This document shows positions 2,292 to 23,900 of a stretch of 64,000 nucleotides of DNA, piece by piece. The notes below the pieces were generated by a model, which searched no databases, was not told the DNA's origin, and saw only the letters and a list, made by a program, of their open reading frames with translations. The number at the start of each line of letters is the position of its first letter. Within the stretch, counting starts at the first letter, position 1. The translations under genes were made by a program, and so were the position numbers. Location of the stretch: assembly GCF_030463565.1 (NCBI RefSeq), contig NC_134644.1, positions 103,226,765 to 103,290,764 on the forward strand. Direction: 5' to 3'. The DNA comes from Pelecanus crispus (Eukaryota; Chordata; Aves; Pelecaniformes; Pelecanidae).

Positions 2292-2370
2292 CATCAAATC
2301 TTTCACTCTGTTGCTTAGCTGATCAATAAATAATATTGGAAGGTAATGCACTGTCTTCCCCAACTGAACC
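2292..2370 (-). CDS. CLPTM1L: CLPTM1L exon 5
   Basis: 79 nt, residues 205-231. It reads VQLGKTVHYLPILFIDQ, then LSNRVKDLM after the split Met codon. The donor is TTGATG|GTGAGT. The acceptor that preserves the protein is CATCCTAG|GGTTCAG at 2371-2372, and it lacks a pyrimidine tract. A stronger-looking acceptor (TTTTCTTTTTAG) lies 40 nt upstream at 2411-2412 but would lead to an early stop. The next exon is not visible in 1-2291, so intron 5 runs off the left edge. Confidence 0.92.
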
Positions 2371-5300
2371 CTAGGATGTTTAAACATGGATTTTATATGA
2401 CTGTAGTGATCTAAAAAGAAAACTACTTTTATTCAAATTAGCACTCATTCATCACTTTCAGATCTACCCGTGTTGATATTTCCCACCACCTGTTCAGGCT
2501 TTTAACACACAGCAAGAAAGAAGCCACTAGCCTAGAGTCTTTCACTGAGAGATGTCTGTATAAAAAAATCAGGCATGTCATATTTCTCCTTTTAAGTTTG
2601 TTTTTACTTTTCTGTAGACAGACAGATTAAGCAAAAAAAAAAAAAAAAAAAAAGACAAATGAAATTGATTGTGATGATGCTGAAGCTGTTGCATGACCAA
2701 GGGTAGAGGAAATTAAAAAGTTTGTTGAAGAGAAACGTGCTGAAGTTTACCACCATATATTTGTATCCTTTGTCTCAAGTATCCCTCTCCTACTGCAACA
2801 ATGACAACTCTCCACCATCTCCCCCACCCCTCTGCACCCCCAATGATATCTATCAGGTCAGCAACAGCACATGCTCTAGCTAGCATGGGACTATGAACAC
2901 GATGGCTGGTACGCATGCAGGAAGGCTAGATACTACTGGAGAGAGTGCACAAGGAGCAGAAATCTTCTCTGCCTTCTCCTCAACAGCAGCTCTCTTTTGG
3001 ATTTCTCTGCCACCTCACCAACCTGCATGAAACCAACAGAAACTTCCCAGCCTTTGAGCCCTCTACAAAATTGACCACTGGAAAGTTATTTAGTAGATTA
3101 TGACTGTATGCAATTGCTTTGTCAGTATCTTAGAAAAGTATTTAGCCTAATGCCCTAAGAAGGACAAATTCTTCAAGTTCTTCACTAGAAAGGCAGTTAT
3201 CTACACTGTGATGTCCTTGGTAAAAGTCTATGGAACTAGAATAATGGACCTTTTGAAAGCCTGAAAGTTGGATTTTAGTTGTTCACAAAAGAAAGAAGTC
3301 TCCATGCATGCTGAGAAAGACTGCATACTAAATATACAATGGGCAACAGTAATATAGAAAAGTACTAAATTGAGGCTCAGAAATACTGCTTGGTTATTTA
3401 ACTGAAGAGGTTTAGATTTCTATAACTACAATTAAATCTACTATTAGAGGAGGTAATTGCAGCAGGCTATTTCATATCCAAACTATTTCCTGTATAATGC
3501 AATGACAAAACAGCACTGATGCATATCTAAACATGACCAGAATAAATATCCTTGTTCATCAACCCCAGTCCAACCCCTTCTTGTTATGGGCCTATCTTAT
3601 GAGTTACTGAGTTTATCTATTCTGGCTGGGAAGCTATCCCAGAACCCCAGGGTCTGCTGATCAAGCAACTACTTGTGGATTTAAGAGGATACTTGTAGAG
3701 AAAGGCATCAACATACAGCAGCACAAGCCAATACAGCACTATTTGTATGGTTAACACTGGAAGTAATTTAAGCAAGCTGTGAACAGAAGCTACTGCCTGT
3801 ATTTAGTGGCCTAGAAACCTATCCCTGTTTTTTAGTATTTTCTTGAGAAAATGACATAATGTAGGAACACACGTTGTCAAAGTAAAATAAAGCCAGTCAT
3901 AAAGGGAGAAAAAAGATGTCACAGGAGATCAGCTGTGCCTCTTCAGCACTTGCAGTTTGTACAGATACTTTGCAGATGAAGGGTAACTGGAAAGGTCAAG
4001 GGACAGTACTTGCTTTAAAGGCCAGAAGTATGATTTGAGAACAAGGGGGTATGAAGTCTGCTGTAGCATTTTTCTTGGGTCTTTGTAGTTCTGCTTTGTC
4101 TTACTATGATAACTCCATACAAAAAAGTATTCTAAACTCTGAGCTGCCCAGGAACAAGATTATCTCCAGGAAGGTTTTCTAGTACATAATAACTTACTGT
4201 CACTACTGAAATGCAAGCATTAAGAGTTATCTATTCTTGTCTCCTAAGTGCCAGTTTAAACAGAAAATACTAAAGGAGGCCAGGGACGATTTTTGAAGAA
4301 ATGTGCAGCAAGTTTATAATAACAAATCTAGCAAAATTAAGTCATCGACTTACATCTTCATGTAACGGTGAACATCAGCAGGGAGGGACGATCCATCAAA
4401 CACAAAATCTTCCACCATGACATTTAAGGTTAATCTTGACCTCCAGTGAGAGACAGGTTCATCTAGAGCATTGGTCTGTTTTTCTGCTTCAATTTGCTTT
4501 AAAAATACAATAAACATACATACTGCTAAACAATACAGAATTTTGAACAGGGTAATACTCGTGACTCACGGAACCTATGGAGTCATTAACTGTATCACAA
4601 AACAGAAGCCCACTAAGAAACATTTCACCTTAATTTTGACCAGACCAAGTATTTTGCTCAAATATGACAGAATGGATTGTAAAGACCCACCATAATCTGA
4701 CACTGAAAAACTTCAGTGCCCATTCACAGCCTTGTTCATCAAGAACAAATATTCAGCTGATTAATCTTAATACCTTAGAAGTGTGGATACTAGCCAGAAA
4801 AAGTCACTTTGAAATAAGGACCGTAGAGCAATTAGATGTTACTTCAAAACAGTCAAAAGGATGTGGATATCAACCATATTAACCATTTTTGGGAGTAAAA
4901 AGATTAGACCATTTGTTTTGAACTTCTGAGCTTCCAAACGCTGTGTCAAGCAGCACTGAAACTGAGTACAACCTCAGCTTTCAGTAGATGCTTATCCCCA
5001 GAGCATTCTGCTTGGTTTTTTTCGGACAAACACCACCTGTTCTGACTTCTAGTGCTGGACTCTAGCCTCAACTCGTTTTCAACTTTATTCTGACAGGATT
5101 TAGAAACAGCACTGCTGGCTACAGGTATATTTCAGATTCCAAAGAATAACAGAGTGAAATTCTCAAGCTCCACGAAATATGAGGCACAACAGCCATTCAA
5201 AAGTATTTCATTAAATAACACCACATTTTTTCACCCCCAGGGAGTAATCATAGCATTTGTCAAAGGATACAATCTTATTCTCTTGAACTGAGGTGGAAAG

Positions 5301-8300
5301 TAAGAACATCCTAAAGGACAAGAAGCAATTTGACATTGGTCACTCACCAATGTCAAAATCAAGTTCAGATCTCTGTTTTATAAAAGCAAAGCATATTATT
5401 TCACAGGAATCCAATTCACTCTAGAAAGCATCATGCTGTTACAGAACAATAGATTATTTCTACCAAAAGCAATGATTCCTTAAAGTAATTAGCATTAACT
5501 AGGGAAGTGTTTTAATAGCAGCCAGTGTTATAGAGGGCTCTACCTCTGCTGTGCTGAGTGGTCTGCTATTAGTGTGCAGGCTGATAATCAAGAAGAGGGG
5601 TTTTGATTTTCTTTTTCCCCTAATATCACCACTGGTGTAAAGATGCAAGCACAGCAGATGCTAACACTAGAAGTGTCTATAAAAGAAATTACTTTTTTTG
5701 CAGTTGTTCACCTCTAGATAGAAAAACCACCTACCTGTGTGGCTGACTCTCCAGTGAGCAAATTAATCTCTTCTGGTTTAGGGACCATGTACGTGGTCAG
5801 AGGACTTACTATATGCACTTGCTTACCATCATGCCAAGGCAAAATGCCAGCATGATGAAGAAATATATATGCATACAATGTGCCATTATTTCGGGTTTTC
5901 TTTGGTACAGAGACATTCACTGTCCTAAAATACAAAATAAATACATTATGAGATGACATAGCACATGCTGAAATATTTTGCTTAACATATACGGATCACT
6001 GAAGATGTTCTGGAAGCAAACAAAAAAAGAGACATTTGGGTTACCTGGCACACAACAATTAGTTCTGGTTCATATGCCCTAATGAGCCATGGCTGGATGG
6101 GATCAATTCATATACTCCAGTATGTATCACAATGTTTGCATTTCCAAAGTTTTACTATTACTTTCAAATACTTTGTCCAATTCATACTTTATTACCCTAG
6201 ATAACACAGGACTGCATCATCAGTTCTTTTGTTGTTTTCCCCTGCCGATAGGTCATAGGGCCAAAATTATCACAGCACTTGTAGAAAATAGCCTTGCATG
6301 TGCTGAATATGTATCACAGATTGTACACGACACGAAGTTTAAAAAGAAAATCACAAATTTTGCCAAGCACTTTGCATTAATAAAAGATCTTCTCAGCTAT
6401 GGCATGCAAAGCACAGAACTCTAGACAGGCGACCCAAACTTGTCACTCACCTTGTGTTAGCCAAGAAATCATCCTACTTGCTACCTTGCATAATGCCTCC
6501 TCTATTCCTGTGAATTTGCTCAGGTTATTTTGCTCTGCATACTTTCAATGGCTTAGCAGACTCAGTAAAACAATTCTTATATTTTCAGGTCTGCCAGAGA
6601 TGAAGCTTAATATGACCTAAGCTGCAGACCAACGTGTTCTTTAATTATAGAAGACACAGAACATGAAAGAACCTGGGAGACTCTGCAACAACACAGTCAA
6701 GAATACGGTGACTATTTTAAACAAAAAAAAAGCGCGAGGCAGCAAACATGAAGCACAAAACAAGTAGTTCTAATAATTTCAGTTGTATAGAGGCATACGT
6801 AGACTATAGCATTATACTCAGAAATTTGCCTAAGGACACAATCTTTTTCCGTCTTAGCACCAACATCCCTTTAGAAGATCTCGAAGCTCTAAACTACCAG
6901 AAAAAGAAGGTTTACTTTCACGATTATTAGCACTGAAACAGTTACAGAAAAGCACGTCGCTAAAACACAGGAAAAGAGAACACGGTTTGACTTCCCAGTC
7001 CTATTCCAGGTCTGAAGCCATGGCTATTAAGAACAAAACATGCAGCCAGTAGACCGGCTACGCATGTTATTACAGGAAAGGCTCAAGCACTTCCAGGCAC
7101 TTTGACTTAGATTGTCACAACGGAAAGTCATTTTTACTATTACGAGCAAAGCACACTTTTGTAAAACATTTGCCTATATGGCTGAAAACAGTACGCTGAT
7201 CCAAACTAAACAACACTTAAGCTTAGCGCATCATGCATACGTTACTGATCTAGCACAGCTAGCAAGATGAATGTTTAGAGTAGAATCTGAAAATTAAGAT
7301 AGACAATATTGGACAGCGTTCAAGATTTGTAAAATGTGCAGGAGAGAAACAAGCATTTCTGTATTTACTAGTATAGCTTTGTTTTGCAAGCTTTGTTTCT
7401 TGCAACTATGAGATGATTTTCAATATAAGGAAAGTTTGTCTAAGAGCCTATTCCTCAGCGTCAGGTGAACTTAGCACACTATTTCCATCAAGGCAGGCAC
7501 TTTGCCAATGTTTAATTTATGAAATAGTCTAGGAACCCTTAACTAAAAAGAAAAGTACTGGTTTTATTAACAGCAGCGCTTTGTCCTCAACTCTAAGGCT
7601 GAAATGCAACTAACATCTTTCCTGCCTTAATGTGGCAAATATGGTTATTGGTGTATGAAAACAAGTGTGAACTGAAGAGCCTGTAACGCATGCAGAAACA
7701 GCTTTAACCCCAAAAGAAAGAATGCAAGGACAACTCCTCTACTCTTTCAACACAACTACCGTGAACAGTCTACCTTGTTTCATGCATACTTCCATACGTG
7801 TAACTACTAGTTAGGATGCATACTTCAGAATTAAAGAAAGAACTCATGGTTTGGATACTTACCTTTCAAATTTGGACTCAATGTCAAAATCCTCCACATT
7901 CAAAACCAGATCTATATTACTCTCAGCACCAATGTTTGACCGTGTGGTAGTATACACGCTTAACTGAAATCAAAACACAGCGCAGAGAAATCAGAGTACA
8001 GAAATATTAAATTCATGCATCAGTACGCTTAGGGTACAGGCCTGTATTTCAGCTTCGCTAGTTTCCCCAGTCACACGACAGTTATATACGCTGGGGAAGA
8101 AAACAACGTACTCAAAAGATAGCTTAACGCCGCTTTCAGCTACCCCTTCCCTCCTTTTGGGGGCAGAAGCACATCGTAAGGCAGCCCCCAGGCCCGTTTT
8201 AACAGGAGGACCTATTCTCCCAAGTTGAAGTCGGAGATTTCTAAGCGGGTCGAGCCGTTTCTCCAGCCAGGCCGCTCCGCTCGGCGTACGTGCCGGCAGA

Positions 8301-8833
8301 GAGGCGAAGCCGAGCAACCCGACGCGCGTCGGCTCCAGCCGGCCCGCAGCCGGGGCACTGCCCGCCGGGCAGGGGAGGCCTGCGGAGCGCCGGCAGCCGC
8401 GGCCTTGCGGAGGCAGGAGGAGGGAGCTGCGCGCCGGGGCGGCCCAGGCGTGACCGCAGCTGTCAGCCCGCTCCGCCCGGCGCCGCCGACAGAGGAGAGG
8501 GGCCCGGGCCGGCGCTACCGCTCCTGCCTCCGGACCGGGACCGGGACCGGGACCGGAGCCCTCGCGGTACCGCGGGGCCCGTCCGGCGGGCGCTCAAGGG
8601 CCGAGGCGGGGTCCGGCCGCCTCCCTGGGCGGCAGCGGCTGCGCCCCGCTCACCTGCAGCTTGGGCCTCCGCGCCAGGTAGGGCCAGACGCACCCGGCCG
8701 CGCCGCCCCCCGCCGCCGCCGCCGCGGGGCAGGGCCGCGTGTAGACGATGCCGTACATCACCCAGCACGTGTGCGCCACGTAGACGGCGAACACCCCCAC
8801 CACCAGGCTGGTGAACGAGCTGCGGCTCAGCAT
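2292..8833 (-). CDS. CLPTM1L: CLPTM1L, 5' half (exons 1-5), partial
   Basis: CLPTM1L (CLPTM1-like, also CRR9) is a multi-pass ER membrane protein reported to flip glucosaminyl-phosphatidylinositol across the ER membrane during GPI-anchor synthesis. Five exons (8833-8654, 7963-7863, 5924-5735, 4496-4354, 2370-2292) join without frame conflict into 231 codons. The human protein has about 538 residues, so slightly under half is present. Visible parts are an N-terminal transmembrane segment at about residues 8-30 and a luminal domain carrying N-glycosylation sequons NVS and NGT. Recognisable stretches include FTSLVVGVF, TRNNGTLYAYIFLHHAG, PKPEEINLLTGES and LPILFIDQLSNRVKDLM. The start is the ATG at 8833-8831, in a perfect GCCGCCATG context. 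The later transmembrane exons are outside the window. Identification is by residue-level resemblance to the vertebrate protein and is very secure. Confidence 0.97.
2371..4353 (-). other. CLPTM1L: CLPTM1L intron 4
   Basis: About 2 kb intron. It contains an A21 homopolymer (2633-2653) and a patch at about 2740-2960 with more C, open in a minus frame but without recognisable protein similarity. No mobile element was identified. Confidence 0.8.
4354..4496 (-). CDS. CLPTM1L: CLPTM1L exon 4
   Basis: 143 nt, residues 158-205 (the last codon is split AT|G). It reads QIEAEKQTNALDEPVSHWRS, then RLTLNVMVEDFVFDGSSLP and ADVHRYMKM, matching the human luminal domain with a few substitutions. The acceptor is TATTTTTAAAG|CAAATT and the donor is AAGAT|GTAAGT. 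Confidence 0.95.
4497..5734 (-). other. CLPTM1L: CLPTM1L intron 3
   Basis: 1.2 kb AT-rich intron bounded by consensus splice sites. I see no gene, repeat family or RNA in it. Confidence 0.85.
5735..5924 (-). CDS. CLPTM1L: CLPTM1L exon 3
   Basis: 190 nt, residues 94-157. It contains TVNVSVPKKTRNNGTLYAY, with two N-glycosylation sequons (NVS, NGT), then FLHHAGILPWHDGKQVH and TYMVPKPEEINLLTGES. The acceptor is TGTATTTTAG|GACAGT and the donor is CACAG|GTAGGT. The frame stays open 21 nt into the intron, so a naive open reading frame overshoots the true donor. Confidence 0.97.
5925..7862 (-). other. CLPTM1L: CLPTM1L intron 2
   Basis: 1.9 kb AT-rich intron. Open frames on the plus strand (for example 6089-6424) have no recognisable similarity and no coding character. 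Nothing else was identified. Confidence 0.85.
7863..7963 (-). CDS. CLPTM1L: CLPTM1L exon 2
   Basis: 101 nt, residues 61-94 (the last codon is split). It reads LSVYTTTRSNIGAESNIDL, then VLNVEDFDIESKFER, nearly identical to the human luminal segment. The acceptor is TTTTGATTTCAG|TTAAGC and the donor is GAAAG|GTAAGT. The phase matches exons 1 and 3. Confidence 0.96.
7964..8653 (-). other. CLPTM1L: CLPTM1L intron 1
   Basis: 0.7 kb intron that changes sharply from AT-rich (below about 8150) to very GC-rich as it enters the promoter CpG island. A GGGACC hexamer tandem array lies at about 8530-8556. Confidence 0.85.
8530..8556 (+). repeat. GGGACC hexanucleotide repeat
   Basis: About four units of GGGACC/CCGGGA in tandem inside CLPTM1L intron 1, within the CpG island. 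A short array that may vary in length between individuals. Confidence 0.85.
8654..8833 (-). CDS. CLPTM1L: CLPTM1L coding exon 1
   Basis: Encodes residues 1-60, starting MLSRSSFTSLVVGVF and ending LARRPKLQ. It contains the N-terminal transmembrane segment. The donor is CTGCAG|GTGAGC and the exon ends in phase 0. Between TRPC and PYLARRPKLQ this copy carries a run of about 13 Ala/Gly residues, longer than the short human linker. The underlying DNA is a GCC/GCG trinucleotide-rich run. Larger open frames on both strands across this exon are products of the GC-rich island and are not credible genes. Confidence 0.96.
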
Positions 8834-8940
8834 GGCGGCGGCCGCCCCCCGCAGCCCCCCTCGGGATCAGCCGGGCCGCCCTGGGCCGCCGCCGCTCGCG
8901 CATCCCCCACGCAGCCAGCCAGCCGCCCCGCCCCGCTCGT

Positions 8941-8949
8941 CACTTCCGG
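8941..8949 (-). promoter_or_regulatory. ETS-family site CCGGAAGTG
   Basis: Read on the minus strand the sequence is CCGGAAGTG, the GABPA/ELK class consensus common in TATA-less CpG promoters. It lies about 110 bp upstream of the CLPTM1L ATG, where a core promoter or 5' UTR start is expected. Confidence 0.55.
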
Positions 8950-9031
8950 CGGGCGGAGGAAGCGCCGCCCCGCCGCCTAGCAACCGGCTGCGGCAGGCGC
9001 TCGCCCCGCGGGCGGCGGGCGCGTCACGGCC

Positions 9032-9039
9032 TGACGTCA
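9032..9039. promoter_or_regulatory. Perfect CRE palindrome TGACGTCA
   Basis: An 8-bp palindromic CREB/ATF consensus about 200 bp upstream of the CLPTM1L start codon, inside the CpG island. A further CGTCA half-site lies just beside it, near 9022-9026. Full CREs within about 250 bp of a CpG-island start site are often functional. Function here is inferred from position only. Confidence 0.6.
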
Positions 9040-9104
9040 GCGGGGCGGCAGGCCTGCTCGCTCCCCGCACGCCGGGCCAGGGCCGGGCCGCCGCCGAGGC
9101 GGGG

Positions 9105-9168
9105 GGAGAGGGGCTGGAGGGGGGAGAGGGGCTGGAGCGGGGAGAGGGGCTGGAGCGGGGAGAGGCGG
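9105..9168 (+). repeat. 18-bp G-rich minisatellite
   Basis: Three full copies (9105-9122, 9123-9140, 9141-9158) and a partial fourth of the unit GGAGAGGGGCTGGAGCGG. The first copy differs from the others by one base. The G runs are suitably spaced for G-quadruplex formation on the plus strand, about 270-335 bp upstream of the CLPTM1L ATG. Confidence 0.9.
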
Positions 9169-9506
9169 CTCCTGTGCGGGCCGCTGTCCTCCCGTCCGCC
9201 CCCCGGGGGCCAGCTGCAAGAGAACAGCAGCGACTTTCCTTAATTAAAAGGAATTATAATACTAAAATCCTCCAGCTATCTTACAGGAAATTACCTGTGA
9301 TACACAGGCTGAAAGGTAGCGCAATATGATTTTAAAAGTTGGGAAGGGAGCAGCAGGCGCTGACGCTGGCAGAGGGCGGCAGTACCCGCAAGGGGAGGGA
9401 CGGCGGCCACCCCTCGGCGCCCAGGGGAGCGGCCCCGGGGCAGGGCTCCCGCCGAGCACGGCCTCACGCCCTGCTCTGGCAGGCCTGAGCTACCACATGC
9501 TGAGGG

Positions 9507-9652
9507 CCCATCCCTGGCAACGCTCAAGGTCAGGCTGGACGGGGCTCTGAGCAGCCTGATCTGGTTAAAGCTGTCCCTGCTCACTGCAGGGGGGTTGGGC
9601 TAGGTGACCTCTAAAGGTCCCTTCCGACCCAAAGCGTTCGATGGTTCTATGT
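9507..9652 (+). mobile_element. CR1 LINE 3' tail, relatively intact
   Basis: The order of words is that of the avian CR1 3' end: CCATCCCTGGCAACGCTCAA, GGTCAGGCTGGACGGGGCT, GCAGGGGGGTTGGGCTAGGT, GACCTCTAAAGGTCCCTTCC, ending near GATGGTTCTATG. It is plus-oriented and 5'-truncated, and much better preserved than the copy at 1500-1690. Open reading frames that start inside it continue into unique sequence and are not genes. Confidence 0.9.
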
Positions 9653-12600
9653 TGCCCCTCAAGGGAGCTGGGGAGGCTCTTCCAGGCCCTGCGCGGGGAG
9701 TTCTGTGTGGTCCTCGCGCATCCGCTCGTGCGGTGTCAACCAGGAGAAAGCTGAGGTGGGGCACGTACCTCAAGTACACCTCAGCCGAGCGCTTCGGGCG
9801 GAAGGCGTGCCGAGGCAGGAAAGGCGCAAGGCACGCGGTAAGAAGCGGCTGCCATGGCAGCTCGGCAAGGCGGCACAACCGGGAGCTTCCCTGCAAGGCA
9901 GGCGAGCGAGGGAACGAGCACACGGGCAGGTGAAAGGCTGGAGCGGTCTGGGGTGCTACCATAAGCACATCGCAGGATGCGTGGAGCTTGGAAATACCAC
10001 GGGGGAAGGTGGAGATGGGTATCTTCCTGAAGAGAAGAAAGTTCTGGAGAGTAACAGTTGAAAGCCAGGAAGATGAGGGAGGGGAAGGAGAGGAGGGCAT
10101 GATGTGAGGGCTCACAGCTCACGCCGCTACCGTCGCAGATTGCGTCACCTGAAAAGACGCCGAAACGAGAGCAGCGTGGAAGGGCCAGCTGCAGATTCCG
10201 ACCCCGCCGCTCCCTGTTGAACCCAAGCAGCACAGTGGCAGGAGCAGCAGGGCAGGGCTCTGCCGCTGCACAGAAGCAAAGTCAGGGCTATAGCCTGTCA
10301 CCTCTGGCAGGCCTCATGCTAGCCCGGCAGGCAGCAGGGAAAAACAGGGTTAAAACCAGATGGTATCAGATAGGGGAATCCTTACCCTTGGAAGAAAGAA
10401 ATTTTGCGTGCATTTTATGCATTTACACATCTGTAATATTTCATTAATAATTTCAATCACTTCCATTTTGCAATGAATAAGCGTTTGTGAAAGTGGAATT
10501 CTGTGAAATTCTGATAGCATCCTCTGGCAGTAGTTAAAACATTTTCTAGTGTACTCTAATTTGCTCTGTACTTACGAAAAGTTATTTGCATTTTAGAGCA
10601 GAAGAAAAAGGAAAAAGAAATTCAAGCAAAAAAAGGTTCAGGTTTTAAAGCTTTTCTTCATAAGAAAGCGTGCCACATTGCTGCATGACTAGTAGGACTT
10701 CACTGAAAGAAGAAATAACTAGATTAAATTTTGTTTTGGACAAATACAGTATTCAGTCTTTTTTCTTACATAGAATGAAGTTACATGCATTTGCTATCAC
10801 CTGCAGATGCCTATTCTTTCACACAAACCACTGCATGACTAACGTGACCTGGGCAAAAGAACATACTCAAAAGCTTCATCCACCCCATAACTTGAAATTA
10901 GAGACTAACATTAAGGAAAGCATTAACAAGCCTTCCCTTGAATCTTCATGTTATGATGAATGTACGTAATTTCTCTGGCAGATTTCCCCAGTGTTTCACT
11001 TGTATTCTTAAAAACATTCATATTAATGGTTCAGTTTACATCCACTAGACCTCATTATGCCTTTTTCCACCCTCTGTAAGAAATTTGTCATGTATGTAGG
11101 TAGGTATCTGAAGTGCTGGATCACTTCTTGTCTGTTTCCTGGATAAATAAAAGTTGCCAGAGCTACTTCCGTCTAATTTAGACAGACACGTTCTCCAGAC
11201 TTCTGGAGCCCCTTTTCTGAATCTTTTTTGGTCTTTCCATGTTGTTCTTCAAGCACAGAAAATGGAACTGGAGTCAATATCCCTGTCCTCCTCAAGGGAA
11301 ACAAAACAAAACAAAACAACCAATAACCAAGCCAGCCCCTCCCCACCCCCCCCCAACACTCTAAACCCAAAGAAAAACCCCTTAAAACCCTGTCATTTCA
11401 TACTCCCAGTTGTCAGGTAAACAAACACTGTTCTGCTACACACACTGCCACAAAGAACGTACAACAAAGCGTGCCTAAACATATACGGACTCAGTCTTAC
11501 TCACAATTATGATTTGTATCCTTTTCCTTATTGTAAACCTTGTTTATAAAAAAACCCCCTTAAATTAAAAAAAAAAATCCAGAGGAAACCAAACATTTTT
11601 TGTTTCATTTTTAATTTGGCTTCACGCTGAAAATTCAATTTACAAGCCATTCATAAGGAAAATGTCCAGTTGGGCAGAATGAGCCATGATTGTATACTGC
11701 ACATCAACACTTGTAGTGTATCATTTAGTTCCCTTTTAGTAAATCATCATACGACTTCTATAGCATAGTTTAAGCATCTACATCATTTGGCTCAGTTCAT
11801 CACACGCTATAGTCCATTTCAACCTATCAGACAACTAACAAGAAAAGAATGCTCAAATTGAGGTATTTCCTTTAAGAATTGACTGATCACTGGTATTCAG
11901 AGGTAATGTTAAATCATATAGTTCTAAACATTGAAAAATGTACAAAACCAAGTTCATTTTTAAAAAATATTATCCTTAGTCTTCCATGCATGTTAATAAA
12001 AAATATAAAAATCAAATTTGTAGCACTGAAGCTATACTTTTTGTTCTGCAAAAGTATTTCCACAATTGGAACCACAAGCTACAGTCATCTTTACTACACT
12101 ACTTGTTTTTGCCTTTCAGTTATGAAGTACAGTCAGTTCAGTGCAAAGGTCATAGTCTATGTACACATACCACAGGAGCCATAGGAGGGAAATTTACAGC
12201 AGAAAATATGCGTTCAGATTATTATTATTATCCAGTAGCACTATATACTGTTACAGATTTACACTGCATATCCAAGGGCTATTATAACAAAAAACTTGCA
12301 GCCAATATGCGTCTTTAAACACACCAGGTCTGCTTGTGCAGCCTTGAAGTCAACAGAAGTTGTACCGCTGATGGAACAAGCACGCAACACCTTGCAAGTG
12401 AGTTCCTACAGAACACTTTCCTGCTCTTGTCAGCACAGGTTTTCAACCAAAAGCATCCTCTTCATGGCAGTGCCTAACTTGGATTCAGTAGCGGTAAGAG
12501 AAAACTCCAAAATTTGGTCATTTAAAAGGTTAACTTTTTTGCTTTTGCATTTAAATTCTCAAGTGAGTTCAAAAACATAGCAATATTTTTTCCAAAATAT

Positions 12601-13284
12601 ATAAATGATATCCTCAATGCAAGTTTAACAATAATTCAAGAGATCAAAAACATTTTTTTCTGAATTGTTTCTCAGCTTGTTGATAACTCAATATTATTCT
12701 TCCAAAAAGATGAACTAGTACCTGCGATCATATTAGAAATATCTTGCACACCTGGAGAGATGCTGGGAATTAGAAAAAGGTTTAGAAAGTGGTCCCATTG
12801 AACAGATGCCAAATACTTTCAGCACAATGCTGCAACACTGAAGTTGTACAGTACATAATACAAGGTTAGCAGATGCTTAGTCTTGGTCCTCCTCCAGGAA
12901 ACAAAATCTATCACTTTTAAAGAAATTCACTTCTGACTTCTAACATTACTGTTTTACATAGAGCTCTTAATACCCTTAGAGCAATTGGAGAAAGCAATAT
13001 AAACAAATCACCAAGCACAAACAACCATATAGACAAGCAGCTGCAACACTTTCGCTTTTTGTCTAAGTATATACAGTTGCTAAGGAGAGATGTTTAACTT
13101 CAGGAATTCTAATCCACATATTTAAAAATGCAATTTCATTTTGAGATGTTTACTTAAAAACTGCTTTTGTAGTCTGGAAAGTACAGCATTGGCTAACCTA
13201 AACCTCCCTTCTGAAATATAAGAAATATTTTGCTTGAACTTCATTATAAAAGAAAACGTAGGGCAAAAATATATACTTAGGGCA
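9653..13284. other. Intergenic sequence
   Basis: GC stays moderately high to about 10.3 kb and then drops to AT-rich unique sequence. A (CAAAA)n tract lies at 11299-11320, followed by a C-rich run, and an (ATT)n tract lies near 12220-12235. Open frames on both strands in 9.6-10.3 kb are GC-driven and overlap each other. I see no gene that I can name. Confidence 0.7.
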
Positions 13285-13692
13285 TACAAGATCTTTAAAA
13301 GTTTATTTCTTTAGTACTTAAAATACAAAATTGTCTTCATGCTGGATAGTGAATAAAAGATGTGTATTTGGGTTTTCCCCACAAACATTCATAGACTTAG
13401 AAATAACCTATTGCCAGATGAATTTCATTTCCAGTACCATGGTAGGATGAAAAGTGTCTGAGCTTCAGCTTTCTTCAGTATCCATGAGGAGACTTTGTTT
13501 GCTATCGCATTTCTAGATGCTGCATTCGCAACTTGGAAGGAAACAGGCACACGCCGAAAGTGACAGTGGGCCAGAAGTTAATCCAATTTAAGGTTTCATC
13601 GTACTGTATTTCTAAATTTAATTTCTTATTGTTCATAGGGACAAGGAGAATCTCAGAAGGTCTTTCAGACCTGCTGTCACCTGGACACACCT
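13285..13692 (-). other. Possible unassigned terminal exon
   Basis: On the minus strand a good-looking acceptor (CTTTTTCTTTTCCCAC, then CCGTTGCAG) precedes an open frame from 13692 to a stop at 13502-13504. The frame includes NLEIQYDETLNWINFWP and FGVCLFPSKLR. A candidate AATAAA follows at 13307-13302. Together these look like a small last exon, but I recognise no protein family and found no upstream partner exon. It lies in the interval that holds SLC6A3 in human, yet does not resemble that transporter. It could be a chance arrangement or part of a lncRNA. Confidence 0.2.
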
Positions 13693-13898
13693 GCAACGGT
13701 TGAAATGTGGGAAAAGAAAAAGCAATCTTTTACTTAACGGCAGGCACAAGCTGCAGCAGTACACGGGCCCTTAGTTTTGGGTGGCATTACCAGAACATGA
13801 CCTCAACATTCACCTGCCACTTACGGCTCAGGGAGAAAAGTCCATGAACGTCACTTAAGCTTAAGAGGCAGCGAGGTCTCCCTCAGGCTGCAGCAAGC

Positions 13899-14138
13899 CT
13901 ACAAAGAACAGACAGCACAAGCAATAGCTAGGGCTACAAAAACTGAAGTCACCAGCCCGAGGCAGAAAAGATCCTTCTTTACTGTGGGAAAAGGCCGGCT
14001 GCACAGTGAAGGCTTTGCTGCCACGCTAGCCTCGATGGGCTTTTCTACTTGCTGGTTCAGGACCAAAAGTTCAGCCTGATTTTTCTCCAACTGACTCTTT
14101 GGCTCAGAACTGGCACTTTCAAATAACACTCCATTCAT
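13899..14138 (-). other. Unassigned 79-codon ORF with C-terminal hydrophobic segment
   Basis: The minus-strand frame from ATG (14138) to TAG (13899) has mixed, gene-like codon use and higher GC than its flanks. It has a polar, Gln/Glu-rich first two thirds (SQLEKNQAELLVLNQQVEKP). It ends in a basic-flanked hydrophobic stretch, VKKDLFCLGLVTSVFVALAI, followed by six residues and the stop. The layout is that of a tail-anchored membrane protein. A stop codon lies 10 codons upstream in frame. I recognise no family, and chance is quite possible at this length. Confidence 0.22.
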
Positions 14139-17100
14139 AATACCAAAATAATATTTTGATAGTATTATTAAAAATTCAGAAGTAATTATGACTTTTCTCT
14201 CGCTTCTAATATTTTTTGGTCAAAGAACTGAAGCTTAATGCTACATCCACACTACCGTACAGCACCCTTTTTGAGATCCCCATGCTAACCTCAAATAAGC
14301 TGGGATGTTTGCATGGCCCTGTGCAATTTAGCTCAGAATAAAGCAGCATGACAACTACGTTGGTAAAAAAAAAACCCAAGAAATAAGTTAATTAGCAGGA
14401 ATAACTTACTCAGGTGCAATCTGTGCTAAGGTGATTCTACTGTTTGTATTCCCCGAGTCTGATCATTTGAAAACTGCAAATACGTCTTTACCGGTTACAG
14501 ATTGCCTCCTAAAGTTAGCCTGCAGAGGAGTACCCTGCTCTGCCACTTTGCTAAAGAAAAAGGAACAAGCAGCCGCTGCCATCACACAACTAGTAAAATT
14601 ATTTTGCCTAACAAGCTTGCAAGACAATCTAGGCAGAGCGTCAACTGCTGCAAAAAGGTCTCGGCCTATTTCACAGAAACATAACCCCTCCATTCTATAA
14701 GCCTCTTAAATCCTCTGCTCTCTTGGTATCACCCACTCGAGTTTAATCCCATTACGCATGATAAAGCGCATCATACCATCTAGGGAAAAAGAAGCTGTTT
14801 TCTACAAAACAAATCATTCCTCCACTCCTAAGAGACAAAATAATATCTTGAAATAAACCTGAAAGGTTTCCTGGGGAAAGAAACTGTCTTAACCTGATCA
14901 CTATGAGATGCAGGAAATATTCACAGATTTAAGTCCAGGCACATCTAATGGACAATCTCTTTGCTGCTGCATTCTCTCAGTAGTTTTTACTTCAATATTA
15001 TATAATTTACGCACATTTTGATCTTGATCTCAGTGTGTTGGTGACTAACACGTATACCCAGTTCACTGCCTTAGCTATAGCATGGAACAATTGTGTTTGT
15101 TCCTCTGAGGTGGTGCTGGAAGATTTCACCTGTAAGGAGGTCTTACGAGGCTCCTGTCACGGTTTGAATACTTTTTTCCAGTCTTCGTAGGAAAAAGGCA
15201 GGGAGAGCAGATGAAACCTCACCAGCTGCACTGCCAGTGACCTAGAAATTACTTGGATACACGATGCTGCAGTACCTTCACGGAATCATTGTCTGACTAA
15301 GGAATGGTTGGCTTAATTTCTACCTAGCTCGGACTTCAAAATTACCTGAATGACAATCTCGGTCTTCCTGCTCATTTGTGAAACAGATCTTGTGGTTTTG
15401 CTGAACTGATTGATTATTAATAATTAATTATCAATGGCACTGATTACCAATTCTTACTTTCCATTTCGAACTGTTGGACCTACTCTTCCTCCTTTTTTGT
15501 AAAGGATCTAGCCATATTAATTAGGTAATGGAAGTTTTCCAAAGTAGCTAAAGTTCAGATACCTAAAAAGTAACAAACCATCTGAAGCACTTGGCTTACA
15601 GGGAAACTCTGTGCTTCAATATGAGTTTAGGAGCCGAACTTAAATTTTGCTAAAGTAAAACTCTTGGCCAACATATTTGTAATTTCTTAATGCTAGGACA
15701 CTCATGAAAGTGCTGCTAGAAAAAACCAGAGGCTTCACATTAAGCAAAACGCACCATTTCAGAAGGTCTTATAACCACACTCTGATCTGAAGGAAAATTG
15801 ATCTGACTTGTTGAAAGTTTTTATCAGATTTTTTTTTTGCATCCTAGTTCAGTTCCATAATACATGCAAAGCTATGCTTATATATTTTTTCTGAGTTCAC
15901 GGGATCGACAGCATGTGGCGTTCAAAGAACACAAGTTGCAGAACTTTAGTCCTTTTTTTTTTTTTCCTCCAAATGAGAATACCATTTTTGAAGAAGCAGA
16001 GAGCAGAATGTGACCAAAACAGTTAACACAAAAAGCTGTACTTAGCACATGATAATATAACATAGGAAAAATAATGTAATGGCAATACCAAAGATGGCCT
16101 TGTAAAGGAATTCATAAATGAATAAAAATACATCTGCTTTAGAAAATTTATCAAGCTATGCAAATGTTAAAAGTGCAACAATCCCTCTTCCAGAAAAAGA
16201 GTTTACTACCTATTATGGATACAAACATATTCCAACCAGCCCAATGCTTAAACTAGCTAAGAAACCTTTTCAGTTTGCATGAAAATATTAATAAACAGCT
16301 ACGTACAAAACTTGACTGTTTATGTCTGGCAGCTTTGCTGCTAAAGAGGTTGCATCACTTCCTTCCTGCACACGTGTCTCCTTTTCAACCTTTGTGACCT
16401 AAGGATTTGTACCTTCAAAGTGGGATTAGCAAACACACGCAAGCCTGGTTGCTTTTTATCATAGTAAGATTATTCTAGCTACAATAAATGCATTGAAACA
16501 TACAGTCTAATTCATTGGTACAAAATTAAGTGTACGACCTAATTTCTCCATAAGGCTTACAAATTGCCTAGAATGCCTTTTAAATGTGTCTGTTTACAGC
16601 AGCGGACTCCTGTGAAATCTGTAATACTGTGGTAGGGACAGTGGTTTAAACACGCTTTGCATGTCCTAAACATTTGCTTGGTTTTAGTGGGTTTTTTTTT
16701 TATGTTTGAAGAAATAGAAATGAAGCACACACAAAAAAAGACACTTTTTAGATATCTTGGATTTCGTGATTTTCTGTTACTTTAAATACAGTCAAAATAG
16801 AGACTATACTTGTTCAACCATACCAGAATAGCAAAGCTTTGGCTGGGCCTCTCATACAATATATAAAAGTTCAGTCTGATGCAAGAGCTCTACTGTCAAG
16901 GGATGGCAGTATTACATAGAAGCAGTAAAATGCTCATCAGAAATGTCACACGCCTTCACACCCTTGCATTTTTTGTGTAAGGATCATTTATTAAGTTACA
17001 TTGTTGCAAAGAACTGAAGTAATTTCTTCATATGTCTCCCTGTAAATTTAGGGGCTGTTGATATCTCCAGTTAAAATAAAACAATGTGTTTGTAGAATCT

Positions 17101-18319
17101 GTAATATTTTAATTGAAAGCATTTACATGTCCGTGTTTGCTGAAGAGGAAAGGAAGCTTTCACTTCTACCCTGACATTGCAGCAGGCAACTGAAACTTGG
17201 CTGTCACAACCCGGCTGTTCCACAGTTGGGTACCTCTTAAAAAGCTACTTATCTGGAACTACTAAAGCATTTCAGCAGTTGGAGTTTGATAGATCAGTTG
17301 TAATGAACATTGCTGCAGTAATGCAATGTGTTACAGCTCTCGGTCCTCAGTGAAGTCCTGAGTTTACCACCCTACAGTAACATGGCTTTTCTGTCACTAT
17401 GAGGCAGTCTACTATTATAGCCTTATATGCTACAGATGCCAAAATCACCTGAATTATATTCATTAATCACAGCTTTTGTGACATTACACATGATCTAACA
17501 ATGTTTCCATGCAGGCTAATCAGGACTTCACCCTATCATTCATCCTGTTATGTCTCTACCTTGTTCAACAATCTCACAAAAGAGGGAGCATCGCAATTCA
17601 TTACAGAATTTAAGTGTGGTTTTGGTTTGGTTTTTTTGTTTTGTTTTTTTTAAATGGTTGCTTCCACCAAGAGTACTTGCTCACCAAGCAAACAATGCGC
17701 TGGTTACTGGCCTTCTTCAGCAGCAGCTCTGGACCAAACTCGCTGACGCACACGGCTTTCAGTGCCTCTTCACCATGCAATGTGGCATTTGCTTCAGGGC
17801 CCGTCTACCGTAGGCTGCAGCGCCCTTCAACCCACTCTGCACAGCTTAGTTGCACACAAGTGCAGTTATTACCCTCACCACAATGAGAAACTGTCTCCCT
17901 CACCAAAAAAAATTTGAAACCAAACGAACCCTTTGGTTTTCAGAAGACAGATCCCCAAGGTACACACACCATACGTGCAAATTAGGCACACTCATATTTA
18001 GCCAACTTCGATCAGGTTTCTTTGTTCCTTCACAGATGTGTACAGAGTATCTCCTCCTCTGGAGCTTCTCTCACCCCAAAGTTGTCTATGGGATAGTAAG
18101 CTTACCTTTTTCGTCTTTTCAGACATGTGTCTCGGGGAACTCTATCTCATCCCCTGCAATCTGAAATTCTCAAATTCCCAAGCTCACATACAAAGCAAAA
18201 GATAACTATCTTTAGACAGCCAGCTTGAGCCACGTGCCATAAAGAGTCTTATAGAGGAGATGCAATAGGCCCAGACTACAGTTCATGGGCCTTTCCTTAC
18301 ATACCGACTAAAATACATA
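14139..18319. other. Intergenic AT-rich sequence, no gene seen
   Basis: About 4.2 kb of AT-rich sequence. T/G-only tracts occur at 16680-16700 and 17616-17652. Short open frames on both strands lack recognisable similarity. No SLC6A3 exon was recognised. No repeat family was identified with confidence. Confidence 0.7.
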
Positions 18320-18990
18320 CTGTAAAATCACAGAAAGTAGACCTCAGGAGATGATCAACAAAATCCAGTGTCTCTGTCTAAGCTGTCTGTTCTGTTTTCA
18401 AAACCTCCAGTGAAAGAAGGCTCCTCACCCCACCTGGAATAACCCATTCTCCCTAGCTAACTAGATGTATTGCAAGGAAATTTTAGCTAACTAGGTGTAT
18501 TATAAGGAATTTTTCCTAATGTTTAATTTGCCTTTCAAATGAACAGCATGTATCTACCATCAATGGGGAGAAAAGACTGTTCCTATCTTCTCTACAGCAA
18601 CTTTTTCCATATCTGAAGACCGTTATCATATCTTCCCTCAGTCTCCTCCTCTTTGGATTAAAGAATACTTCCGATCTTTTTTGAGTACTTTCTGTCCTCC
18701 AGACTCTTATACAGCTACTCCCTATCTTTCTCAGGTGCTCCAACACAGACAGGTACTTCAGGTAAGGCCTTATCACACCTTGGTAACACACATATACACC
18801 ACACTTCTCACAGGCTACACTGTTGATGCATCCCACTATGATTATCTTTTCTGCAGCAATGAGTTAACAGCCCTCAGTTTGTCATATTCTATTCTATCCC
18901 TGCCCCAAGATGTATTATGCAGTAATACCCACTCCCTCCTGTTCATGCAGCTGACTATTCCTACGCAAGCGTAGTTCCCCACATGCCTTA
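18320..18990 (-). mobile_element. Ancient CR1-like LINE relic
   Basis: Read on the plus strand it has the reverse-complement CR1 3' order: AATCACAGAA, ACCTCAGGAGATGATCA, GGAATTTTTCCTAATGTTTA, ATCATATCTTCCCTCAGTCT and CTTCAGGTAAGGCCTTATCA. It is strongly diverged, with indels, so it is an old insertion in minus orientation. The limits are approximate, and the upper part may extend to about 19080. Confidence 0.7.
18455..18514 (+). repeat. 30-bp tandem duplication
   Basis: Two adjacent 30-bp copies (18455-18484 and 18485-18514), both starting AGCTAACTAG and sharing GTGTAT/ATGTAT, AAGGAA and a T-rich end, with only four or five mismatches. It lies inside the CR1 relic and so arose after that insertion. 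Confidence 0.85.
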
Positions 18991-20105
18991 TTTTTCCACA
19001 CCATTTCTCCTATTTTTCCTGATCAGTTTTAATTCAAATCTTGTCTGCCAGTCTGCTGCAGCCCTGTCAGCCTTGCATGCGTTACCAAGAAAAATAAAAA
19101 AAATAATTATTACCTCTAAATGAGGACCTACCTCCACATACGCCACAGAAAGTATAATGTCTTACTTCCTCCCCCCCCACCCCCCAATTAAAGCCATTTC
19201 AGTTTGGAGACTTGCCACATACAGTTAGGGATTTCTAAGGACACATTCCAATACCCTAATGAGCTTCAAAAACACCTCCTGCTATTTAAAAAATAATAAT
19301 AAAAGCATTTGGTACAAATGTATTTCCTTCTGCTGAAATTCCTCCCTTTCAAATCTAGTTTTAAATTATTCTAACATGTGGAAGATTCAAATCTCAACAG
19401 CAGTTTTCTAATCACAAAACCATCATATTTTAGCGCAGCCCTACAAGATTAGTCACAGAAATGATATGAGAGGTTTTTTTGTTTGTTTGGAAGTAGAGTT
19501 GGCATCAGAGTTATTTTGTGACAGAGTCCTCCTTCCTACTCCTTGAGGCTTTTGTCACATTTCCTAATCAGTGAAGCTGTATCGTTTTGTAATAATTTAA
19601 AATTTTCTCCGAGACCTCCATTGGTAATTAAGGCATCTGGCTTTACAAAAGGAAAGATAAGAAACATCACTAATACAAGTGGTTGAGGGTGGTTTTTTTG
19701 TTTGGGTTTGGTTTTTTTTTTTGTTAAACAGTTCTAAACTATTTTAAGCTTCATATACGTTATATGCAGTATATGTAACGTTGCTATAGAGATTTAACTA
19801 GCATTTCTTCAGGATGTTCTGCAACTTGTTGCTGGCTTGGCCTCTGAAGTAACTGCAGCCTTTTCAAATGTGCTGATACAACAGAGTTTTCATAATGTTT
19901 TCCATGCTAAGTTATCTGTATGTACAGGCTTGCTACAAAAGAAACCTGTGATACCTGATAATCTAGATTAAATAAAATTGTGTAAATGTCTTCCATTTAA
20001 ATGTTGGGTGGACATGATTTGAATTGATTATAAGAGAAAAGCACAAACAGTTTTGTCATGTATTTGCAAACAGTATGTGGCATGTCAGTTTGGAAAAAAA
20101 TCATG
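18991..20105. other. Intergenic sequence downstream of LPCAT1
   Basis: AT-rich. It contains a C-rich run (19169-19186) and a T/G-only tract (19690-19726). No gene was seen. Part of it may belong to a longer LPCAT1 3' UTR if a more distal polyadenylation site is used. Confidence 0.6.
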
Positions 20106-20777
20106 TTTAATTGCATCCGGAAGATTACAGTAGAAAAGTGTTGGGGTGAGGGATAAGGAGCCTTTCCTTTTCATTCTACCATGGAATAGACTGAAAGAGA
20201 AACAATTTTGTCATTCAACAATAAAAAGTAATCCTTAGCAAGTTTTTGCTTACTGTTTCCAAACTGTTCACTGAAACCAAAACAAAGGGCCAAAATGTGC
20301 TTGCCTTGCTCAAGAGAATAATCCCACTGAAATCAACAAGACTGACTATGCAAATATGGACAGCAAAGTTTGGCCCCCCAAAAAATCCCCATAACTAGGG
20401 AAAACACTAATCACCAAAGTGCACTTAACACCATAGTAGCTACAGTTTCTTTATACATGCACAGTTTGTGCGACACTTTGTACATGAAACTAGCCAATGG
20501 AATATAAATAAGTGTGCCGCTTCCTTTTAAATATGAACATTAATAATGAAGCAGATTCACATTTTTGCCTTTCAAAGACCTTTTTGAAAAAATAAAAACA
20601 CCTTCCCCAAAGTAACCTGGAACATGTTAAATATAGCACATATGATTCAAAGAACAGTATTAAGGTAGAAGAACTTTCACACACAAAACTGGTATTTGCT
20701 GTATAGTTGGAGTGACTTATGAAAATTCCAAGAAAAGACAATCCTCTCACCAGGAGAGGAAGGTAACAGTTGTAGTG
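20106..20777 (-). other. LPCAT1: LPCAT1 3' UTR, probable
   Basis: Sequence directly after the LPCAT1 stop codon. The nearest plausible polyadenylation signal on the minus strand is ATTAAA at 20111-20106, giving a UTR of about 0.7 kb. No canonical AATAAA was found closer. The human UTR is longer, so the end is uncertain. It contains the 90-bp inverted-repeat element described separately. Confidence 0.4.
20287..20376. mobile_element. 90-bp element with GGGCCAAA/TTTGGCCC ends
   Basis: A 90-bp segment bounded by perfect 8-bp inverted repeats GGGCCAAA and TTTGGCCC, with CCACTGAAATCAACAAGACT near the middle. The ends and centre resemble a short palindromic repeat I remember as widespread in reptile and bird genomes. 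The interior has decayed and no target duplication is visible. Family assignment is tentative. Confidence 0.5.
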
Positions 20778-20962
20778 TTAATTCAGTTTCTTCTGCAGGG
20801 GCTTGTTTTTATCTTCAGTGTTTTCAGGGCTGAAGTCAGTACAGATCCCATTAGGAGCAGAAAGAGATGAAGTCTCCAAGCCACTCTCAGCTCCCATCTG
20901 ATCAGCATAGAGATAGTCTTCTGCAAAATGTGGGTGCAGTTCAGCAAATCTGTAGAAGTCAT
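20778..20962 (-). CDS. LPCAT1: LPCAT1 exon 14, C terminus
   Basis: 185 coding nt reading DFYRFAELHPHFAEDYLYAD, then a variable tail with TDFSPENTEDKNK, ending PLQKKLN and stop TAA at 20780-20778. KKLN is a di-lysine ER retrieval signal, conservatively different from human KKLD. The acceptor is a T run followed by AG|ATGACTTC. Confidence 0.97.
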
Positions 20963-23900
20963 CTAAAAAAAATTGTCATTACACAGAATCAGCTCTTTGA
21001 AACAGAAGGACGCTAAATTTGAATACTTACACATACATAATCACATGATCACTTTGGAGAAAAATAGCAGCAGTTAACATGCTACCCCCATAGCTTGTTT
21101 TAGCTTCTCAGCAGAAGTTTACCACATCCCCAAAGCCAAGATGCTGCAAAGAGTTATCTAAGCCCTCTTAAAACACTCCACACAGGAGCTTAGCTTGTAT
21201 GGTGAAGGGGTAAACAGGCTCAGATTTGCATTAAAATGCATGAGGAGCACCACATGCCCTGACATAGCATCTCACTGCTCACTGGGGGAAGGGCTGAAGC
21301 CCTCCAGCTGAGGAACAATGAACAGCAAGAGTAGTCATTTCTTAAAATCTGGGAAGTCTTTTGCAAACATGCCCTTTAATGCTCTGCACTCATAATTCTC
21401 TTCAACCTAACAGCAGCTGTCATTGCTGCCTTCTACTTTCAAGATTTCAGCATTTCAAAACTTCTAGTATTTTAGAAAAATAAGTGTGAGAAGATAATTA
21501 ATTTGTAACACATTATGAAGCAAAATTGATTTTCATGTTGGCTACTAATAAGACAATAAAAAGAGCAAGATTAGTTCTTGGGGGAGCAGGGAATCCTTAA
21601 CATCAAGAAGTTACATTTTGTGTTACAAATAAGGCACTGAAGCCTTGTCACTATTTGCCCATATGACTGTTTATTCAGACATGATTTGAACACAAGATAC
21701 TGTACAGGATCCCAGTCATAAGAAGCTATTCTTGTAACGTAAACTGACACTGGAAGAAGCTGGATGCAAACATTATCACCAACTCAGTCACCTACAGTGT
21801 ATCACACACAGCCCACTCAAATTCACTGTGTTATCCCAGAAGAGCTCATGATCAGACGATGCTGCGAGTTCCTTGGAGTGCAGCGCAGATGACAGCTGAA
21901 GTAGCCTCACAGAGGAGTGAAGCCCAGTTCCTCCGGGTACAACTGGCCTGCTGTGGAAGAAGGGAACTACCACCCCTTTCCCTCTCCACCACCCTTCTCT
22001 GTTTGAGACTGCGTGTTTTTCTCAGTATTGCAAAGGGCAAGAGAATGTCGTTTGGCTCACAGCAGCACTGAAGTTGTAGGTCAATCCTGCCTCTGAACTG
22101 TTGCAAAGGGATAGGTGGGGAGAATGCAATAAACAAATTCATACTTCCACAAACAAAAAAGTGGGTATCCTTTATCCACAGTTTATATGGAACTAAAGTA
22201 TTTTGGATCCTGTAACTTCAACAAAAGCTGATGATGTTCAGGTCATGAAAACAAACACTATCATCTATGTGGAAAAACCTGTAGGTACAACAGGCTGATT
22301 GATCATGTAAATGACAAAGTCTTCAAGTCAGGGGCTGGGGGGGGGGGGGAATCTTGTGCTGTGAAGCATTAGACTAGAAGAAAAGATCACCTTAGTTATT
22401 TACTTGGGAAAAAAAAATTACTTTGCTTCCTGCCCCTACTAAGAGGAAAGAGGCAAAAAGAAGGAAAGAACCCAAAGTGGAGTTCTTAAGACGGCTGTCT
22501 ATACTTCTGCATTAAGTATGCATATGTATTACAAGAACTTCAAGAGGTTTTTCTGCTGCCTTTGCAATACCATCCCACTACTTGATGCTCCTGATGGAAG
22601 CTGTATGCTCATGAATCTCCTCTAGTTCTTGTTCCACCTCAGCTACAAATTTAGTAATTTAGTAATTACTTTAGTGTACAGGAACTTAATAGGATAATCC
22701 TGTGGTTAATATAGGTAAGGATGCTACGTGTTATAGAACAAATAATTCTTCCTTCTCTGAACGTTCATCTGTATGGATATTCACAATACTGCCAATCCCC
22801 CCTTTCTTCTTGTTACTAGCAAGCAAGGCAGAGCCTTCAGAACACTTTCAGAGTCATCATTTGTCTATCAAGAACACATAGACAGTTTCCTAGAATTTCC
22901 AATGCCCACCTACAGAACCTATTCAAATTCTCCAGAATCGTGTCTTAAGATTGAGAAATCTTGCCTCTCTCTAGATTACTTAGATTAGGGATGAGCTTTG
23001 AATCAAGGTGCATTTAAACAGTTAAGCCAATAACACACTACTTAAAAGAATGGAAACAATACACAGATCTTCGGCAACTAGTGTATTTTCAACAATGCAT
23101 CAAAAATCCAGACTTCTAACAATTCAGATCCAACATTATCAATGTAGTTACAAAATCTCAATTTTGCTATTGGTTTTTCTGTTTACCTGCAACCTGAGCT
23201 TTTCCTTTGGGATCAGATCTCTGGCTTCAAGGACTCTACTATACGTGCAGCAGTTTAGCTTTGATACTTTGGATATTTTATTCTTTGTTCTCACAAGTAA
23301 GACTGAAGACTTAATATTCCTGCTTCACATTCTAACACCCTAGAAAGAAGCAGCTTGTAAGCAGACCCCTCTGCTCTGCGTATCCAAAGTAATGTCAGTA
23401 CTCTTCCACCAGATACAAAGTTTTGATTTCTTAGAACTTGTCCAGACAGTGCCTTCAGAAAAGGTGTAGTTTACAAATTTTCCACCTCTCCTTTCTCAGT
23501 ATTTAAGTGCAACAAATTGAGTAGTGGAAAGTTGCACATATTCTCAGGAAAGGCAAGAACTTTCAAGATAGAAATGCAATACCAAAAGTTTATTTTCATC
23601 TTCTAATTCTCTACCACAATAAATTGGGACATTTATTCTTACTATTAAGCGTTCAGATATGTTAAAATCACGGTGCAATGTTTCTATTATAAAATGAGCA
23701 CTTCTCTCAGAAAAAGATCCAAGCAAAGTTTCAAAGAAGTGACGTGACGTAAACACCATCCTACTTTGCGTAGCCTCACAAAAGACTACTCTTGACTGCA
23801 GGAAATAAAATAGTGAAAATGAGAGCTAAGCGCTTCAGTAGCCACTGCTGTGGCTCAGTGATCCAGATTTTCTTATGAGGGGAACATACCATGACCACTC

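Follow-up and report, generated by a model that had tools for sequence, protein, structure and literature searches.

Absence of the dopamine transporter gene SLC6A3 between CLPTM1L and LPCAT1 in a pelican genome, with a calibrated search for its relics

Introduction

SLC6A3, the dopamine transporter (DAT) gene, sets the duration of the dopamine signal and is a target of cocaine, which makes its absence in birds and reptiles notable. Lovell et al. (2015; Sci Rep 5:14093, PMC4894405) described the loss of this gene in birds, crocodiles, turtles, lizards and snakes, and located it in the interval between CLPTM1L and LPCAT1, the genes that flank SLC6A3 in mammals. Here we consider that same interval in a stretch of 64,000 nucleotides from Pelecanus crispus (contig NC_134644.1), referred to throughout as the window.

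In chicken, the interval between the two genes is ~12 kb long, gapless and without DAT, and searches in other birds, with the shotgun sequences of 57 more among them, confirmed the absence; alligator, anole and painted turtle gave no trace of DAT either (PMC4894405). The same authors proposed that the loss is compensated by expression of SLC6A2 (NAT) in dopaminergic cells, having found it in the dopaminergic neurons of zebra finch and anole; NAT expression in the chick, published in 2022, agrees with this (PMC9679639), and a zebra finch paper of the same year treats the loss of DAT as given (PMC8910180). How the loss came about was left open (PMC4894405). Among the titles and abstract openings listed in searches on the topic, none reports SLC6A3 in a sauropsid. 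The absence of SLC6A3 at this locus has thus been in print since 2015, and the present observation is a correct rediscovery of it.

Results

The initial annotation of the window, made from its letters, held that CLPTM1L and LPCAT1 are direct neighbours here, in conserved order and orientation and about 12 kb apart, with no SLC6A3 between them; all of this was borne out. When human proteins were used as tblastn queries, CLPTM1L produced five exon matches (residues 5-230, running from 8824 to 2280) and LPCAT1 eleven (residues 161-534, from 62695 to 20781), all collinear and on the minus strand. The spliced models of both genes are open, without an internal stop codon and with AG/GT at the internal junctions, the first exon of the LPCAT1 model beginning one base inside the true exon. 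The CLPTM1L start codon, ATG, occupies 8833-8831 and the LPCAT1 stop codon, TAA, 20780-20778, and the sequence between them measures 11,944 bp, so that the limits given in the annotation, 8834 and 20777, are exact. The two genes are adjacent on one strand and in the mammalian order; the human order is CLPTM1L, SLC6A3, LPCAT1. There is no assembly gap, a possibility that the annotation had raised, since the 64-kb window contains zero N. The layout is as follows.

2292 to 8833, minus strand: CLPTM1L exons 1-5, the remainder lying beyond the window start (tblastn with human CLPTM1L, splice-checked model).
8833-8654, 7963-7863, 5924-5735, 4496-4354 and 2370-2292, minus strand: coordinates of these CLPTM1L exons (splice-checked model).
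8834 to 20777, no strand: CLPTM1L-LPCAT1 interval, 11,944 bp, where synteny would put SLC6A3; free of N and of any significant match to that gene.
20778 to 62681, minus strand: LPCAT1, 11 exons, human residues ~166 to stop (tblastn, spliced model).

In the database, the LPCAT1 model comes closest to entries from Buteo buteo and Aquila chrysaetos (99%), ahead of those from a cockatoo (96%) and from a tit (94%), each row standing for a cluster, and this proximity to bird entries places the genome among the sauropsids. There is very little doubt that we are dealing with the locus of the known SLC6A3 loss, common to sauropsids, as it stands in a bird.

A translated search of the kind that the annotation had suggested found no significant match to an SLC6A3 exon. 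Of 120 SLC6A3 proteins retrieved, the 108 with a length of 560-660 residues served as queries, from mammals, amphibians, coelacanth and lungfish plus ten unnamed proteins, with no ray-finned fish named among them; run against the whole window by tblastn with sensitive settings, they gave no significant match, the best E value being 0.076 as against 0.27 in a control with the window reversed and not complemented. Within the interval, the best of 12 representative queries scored 25.5 bits, which was reached in 16 of 100 dinucleotide shuffles. For a profile hidden Markov model (HMM) of SLC6A3, the best E value was 0.1 when the interval was searched and 0.25 for the full window. Two of these matches were considered as remnants and set aside. 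The plus-strand match at 17620-17844 (E 0.076) lies on the wrong strand and falls outside the top six on either strand in the decay-aware scan described below, and the minus-strand HMM match to profile positions 393-416 (in tblastn, 20458-20390, ~320 bp past the LPCAT1 stop) has E values of 0.1 and 0.27 and contains an internal stop codon.

How much such a negative is worth depends on the decay to be expected. Divergence dates of 280-319 million years (My) were used for this purpose. The median rate at avian fourfold sites is 0.00147 per site per My (PMC7116210), and over these dates it yields an expected neutral decay of 0.41-0.47 substitutions per site; an avian whole-genome average of ~0.002, implied by PMC5473641, raises this to ~0.56-0.64, and a monotreme rate (PMC8081666) was not used, while PMC4844689 offered no usable rate in the text consulted. 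Neutral decay was simulated 25 times per step and success defined as the recovery of at least one exon, tblastn being run with ten queries at E 0.001. It succeeded in 25/25 simulations up to 0.3 substitutions per site, 15/25 at 0.4, 3/25 at 0.5, 2/25 at 0.6 and 0/25 from 0.7, while the HMM succeeded in 25, 20, 2, 1 and 0 of 25 in the same series. The power of both methods falls at the decay expected for a loss ~300 My old, and the plain negative is consequently weak evidence.

We also used a spliced scan that takes decay into account, in which each codon is given a probability of descent from an SLC6A3 codon after a neutral divergence of 0.4, against a background of local base composition, and in which frameshifts, gaps and intron jumps are permitted. 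It was calibrated on simulations with a profile of ten proteins and approximate exon lengths, amounting to 14 pieces (one of only 2 nt). Twenty simulations were run per step. At a threshold of 25, every one of them yielded at least one true exon when the decay was 0.3, 0.4, 0.45 or 0.5 substitutions per site, as did 19/20 at 0.6 and 16/20 at 0.7, against 0/20 controls without an insert. A mean of 8.0 of the 14 pieces was recovered at a decay of 0.45 (chain scores of at least 256, n=20) and of 2.65 at 0.6 (at least 152, n=20); at 0.7 chain scores ranged from 127 to 182, and those of the controls from 105 to 128.

Applied to the interval, the scan gave chain scores of 126 on the expected strand, reached in 28 of 100 shuffles, and 133 on the opposite strand. 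From position 9500 on, which leaves out the core of the CpG island, the best local score on the expected strand was 23.4 (reached in 22 of 150 shuffles) with an ordinary chain (85 of 150), and on the opposite strand 25.0 (5 of 150), again with an ordinary chain (27 of 150); the local maximum in natural control chunks of the window was 23.5. With a profile set for 0.6, the local score was reached in 44 and 8 of 150 shuffles and the chain score in 85 and 39 (expected and opposite strand, respectively). No SLC6A3 relic was accepted in the interval down to this detection limit. The annotation had taken the place to be the site of the deletion itself; the absence of SLC6A3 from this conserved position is supported, the flanks being those of PMC4894405. 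It had also thought the place readable for relics, and the scans gave none that we accept.

The highest sub-threshold stretch deserves separate mention.

12094 to 12246, plus strand (opposite to that expected): best sub-threshold SLC6A3 match in the interval, residues 164-217; judged to be chance.

It tops the interval both in the 12-query tblastn search and in the decay-aware scan outside the island edge, although these methods are not independent. Its tblastn score recurs in 16 of 100 shuffles and its decay-aware score in 5 of 150 on that strand, or 8 of 150 with the 0.6 profile. As a remnant of SLC6A3 it was rejected, being not significant (p ~0.07 over the two strands), on the wrong strand and without a supporting chain; we judge it a chance match, yet the sole spot that merits inspection once related genomes are aligned.

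Protein databases point in the same direction. The search with human SLC6A3, with scoring limited to the 7,981 candidates that had the most words in common with it, returned 6,750 relatives, of which the best 120 extend down to 81% identity. The 110 named rows among these 120 are mammals, salamanders, frogs, coelacanth and lungfish, with 0/110 sauropsids, and ten rows are unnamed. In the same database, the best 120 matches of LPCAT1 include birds, turtles, alligator, lizards and snakes, which indicates that sauropsids are well represented in it, and SLC6A3 from a sauropsid, if full-length, would be expected at about the rank of its amphibian and platypus counterparts.

As to its other contents, the interval begins within a CpG island and holds two pieces of CR1, a long interspersed nuclear element (LINE), identified by comparison with a CR1 consensus.

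8001 to 10000, no strand: CpG island spanning the start of CLPTM1L; G+C 63-80%, CpG observed/expected 0.67-0.97, in 500-bp steps.
9508 to 9651, minus strand relative to the consensus as typed: CR1 LINE fragment, 69% identical to the CR1 consensus (consensus comparison).
18307 to 19077, plus strand relative to the consensus as typed: old CR1 LINE relic, 64.8% identical to the consensus (463 of 715 bases in the alignment).

The old relic was missed by blastn at E 0.01, and in an optimised gapped alignment 0/200 shuffles reach its score. Its identity of 64.8% shows that strongly diverged neutral DNA is still recognisable in the interval; the CR1 consensus used may not be that of its true subfamily, and this identity accordingly gives no age. 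Should crocodiles or turtles carry orthologous copies, the relic could help to put a date on the interval. Within it, at 18454-18513, lies a 30-bp tandem duplication whose copies are 87% alike. Other CR1 fragments occur in the window at 1496-1687 and 41963-42351, and together with 9508-9651 they span 69-77% identity to the consensus. An 18-bp tandem repeat (9103-9170, 3.7 copies, 96% matches) lies in the CpG island upstream of CLPTM1L, and CLPTM1L exon 1 (8654-8833) carries an Ala/Gly-rich insertion of approximately seven residues when compared with human CLPTM1L. One more CLPTM1L match was reported by tblastn, plus strand, 46022-46132, with an E value of 0.32, and is due to chance. Ten open reading frames of the 62 in 8000-21500 were compared with Pfam as candidates for other genes, and none passed a curated cut-off, the best E value being 0.088. 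The window as a whole likewise contains no tRNA and no Rfam family that reaches its gathering score.

Discussion

In explaining how the locus came to its present state, we propose that an ancestor would have lost SLC6A3 from between CLPTM1L and LPCAT1, both of which stayed in place and intact, and that its coding exons most likely went through physical removal, in one deletion or several, instead of being silenced and then left to decay in situ. Dopamine reuptake in birds may have been taken over by SLC6A2 (NAT) in dopaminergic cells; this compensation, like the sauropsid-wide extent of the loss, comes from the literature (PMC4894405) and not from this DNA. We infer physical removal and its timing from simulation, because a decay-aware scan that has power at the expected decay finds nothing convincing in the interval. 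Taken as a whole, the statement that this is the known loss locus and that its coding exons were most likely removed physically seems to us quite probable. A more specific history can be offered tentatively, as one possibility with slightly less in its favour than against it: SLC6A3 may have been excised early in sauropsid history, through a single large deletion or a few, not silenced and then eroded, leaving a compact interval that has stayed at ~12 kb since the ancestor shared with chicken and that has kept an old CR1 relic and no exon remnants.

Several observations weigh against physical removal, or blur the line between one deletion and many. The faster avian rate (PMC5473641) weakens the case somewhat. 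The simulations comprised substitutions and short indels, and many larger deletions would look like a single excision; they also used a profile of ten sequences, where the interval was scanned with one of twelve. Simulated chains at 0.7 (127-182) overlap those observed in the interval, natural control chains reach as high as 143 and the chain of the reversed interval 148.7, and at 25.0 the stretch 12094-12246 exceeds the natural control maximum. The highest local peaks of all, 34.3 at 9236 (minus strand) and 30.0 at 9345 (plus strand), were reached in 0/100 shuffles; we regard these peaks as an effect of the CpG-island edge, the reversed sequence giving 31.3 and 33.0 at the same place. Finally, the best 120 SLC6A3 rows would miss short or partial sauropsid models.

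The alternative that survives best is that small mutations inactivated SLC6A3, whose exons then eroded where they lay until they were past recognition. The tblastn result alone is compatible with this, as an exon was found in so few simulations at 0.5, and from 0.7 upwards the decay-aware scan also misses some relics; the CR1 relic demonstrates that old neutral DNA persists in the interval, and the faster rate implied by PMC5473641 raises the odds of such a history. We nevertheless consider in-place decay unlikely, because the scan finds simulated relics without fail at 0.45 and 0.5 and nearly always at 0.6, and none was accepted here.

Removal to another part of the genome, with the gene still present and only synteny broken, is very improbable. 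Some avian genes once supposed missing were later identified, having often evaded standard sequencing (PMC12954441); however, the main text of that paper does not mention SLC6A3, the dopamine transporter or LPCAT1, published genome-wide searches in birds and reptiles were negative (PMC4894405), and there is no sauropsid among the 110 named rows of the best 120 SLC6A3 relatives. That the gene was collapsed or dropped from the contig during assembly is the least credible account of all, with no point found in its support and with both the uninterrupted sequence and the match of 11.9 kb to the gapless chicken interval (PMC4894405) speaking against it.

Physical removal of the coding exons thus remains our preferred reading, and it can be set beside the locus that Lovell et al. 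(2015) described (PMC4894405). The two are alike in their neighbours, CLPTM1L and LPCAT1, and in the SLC6A3 missing between them, and our observations agree with the published loss in birds and reptiles at the same place. The published interval is that of chicken, whereas the bird examined here has an LPCAT1 99% identical to those of Buteo buteo and Aquila chrysaetos; its interval measures 11.9 kb against ~12 kb in chicken, whose delimitation is not stated in the text consulted. Their 15-kb region contained one LINE and one long terminal repeat (LTR) element, while the present interval has two CR1 LINE pieces, LTR elements not having been searched for. Where Lovell et al. reported no traces in the text consulted, we provide a quantified search for relics with a stated detection limit, and this calibrated limit, added to the published loss, bears on how the loss occurred: an ordinary translated search is weak at ~300 My of decay, but a decay-aware scan retains power and favours physical removal.

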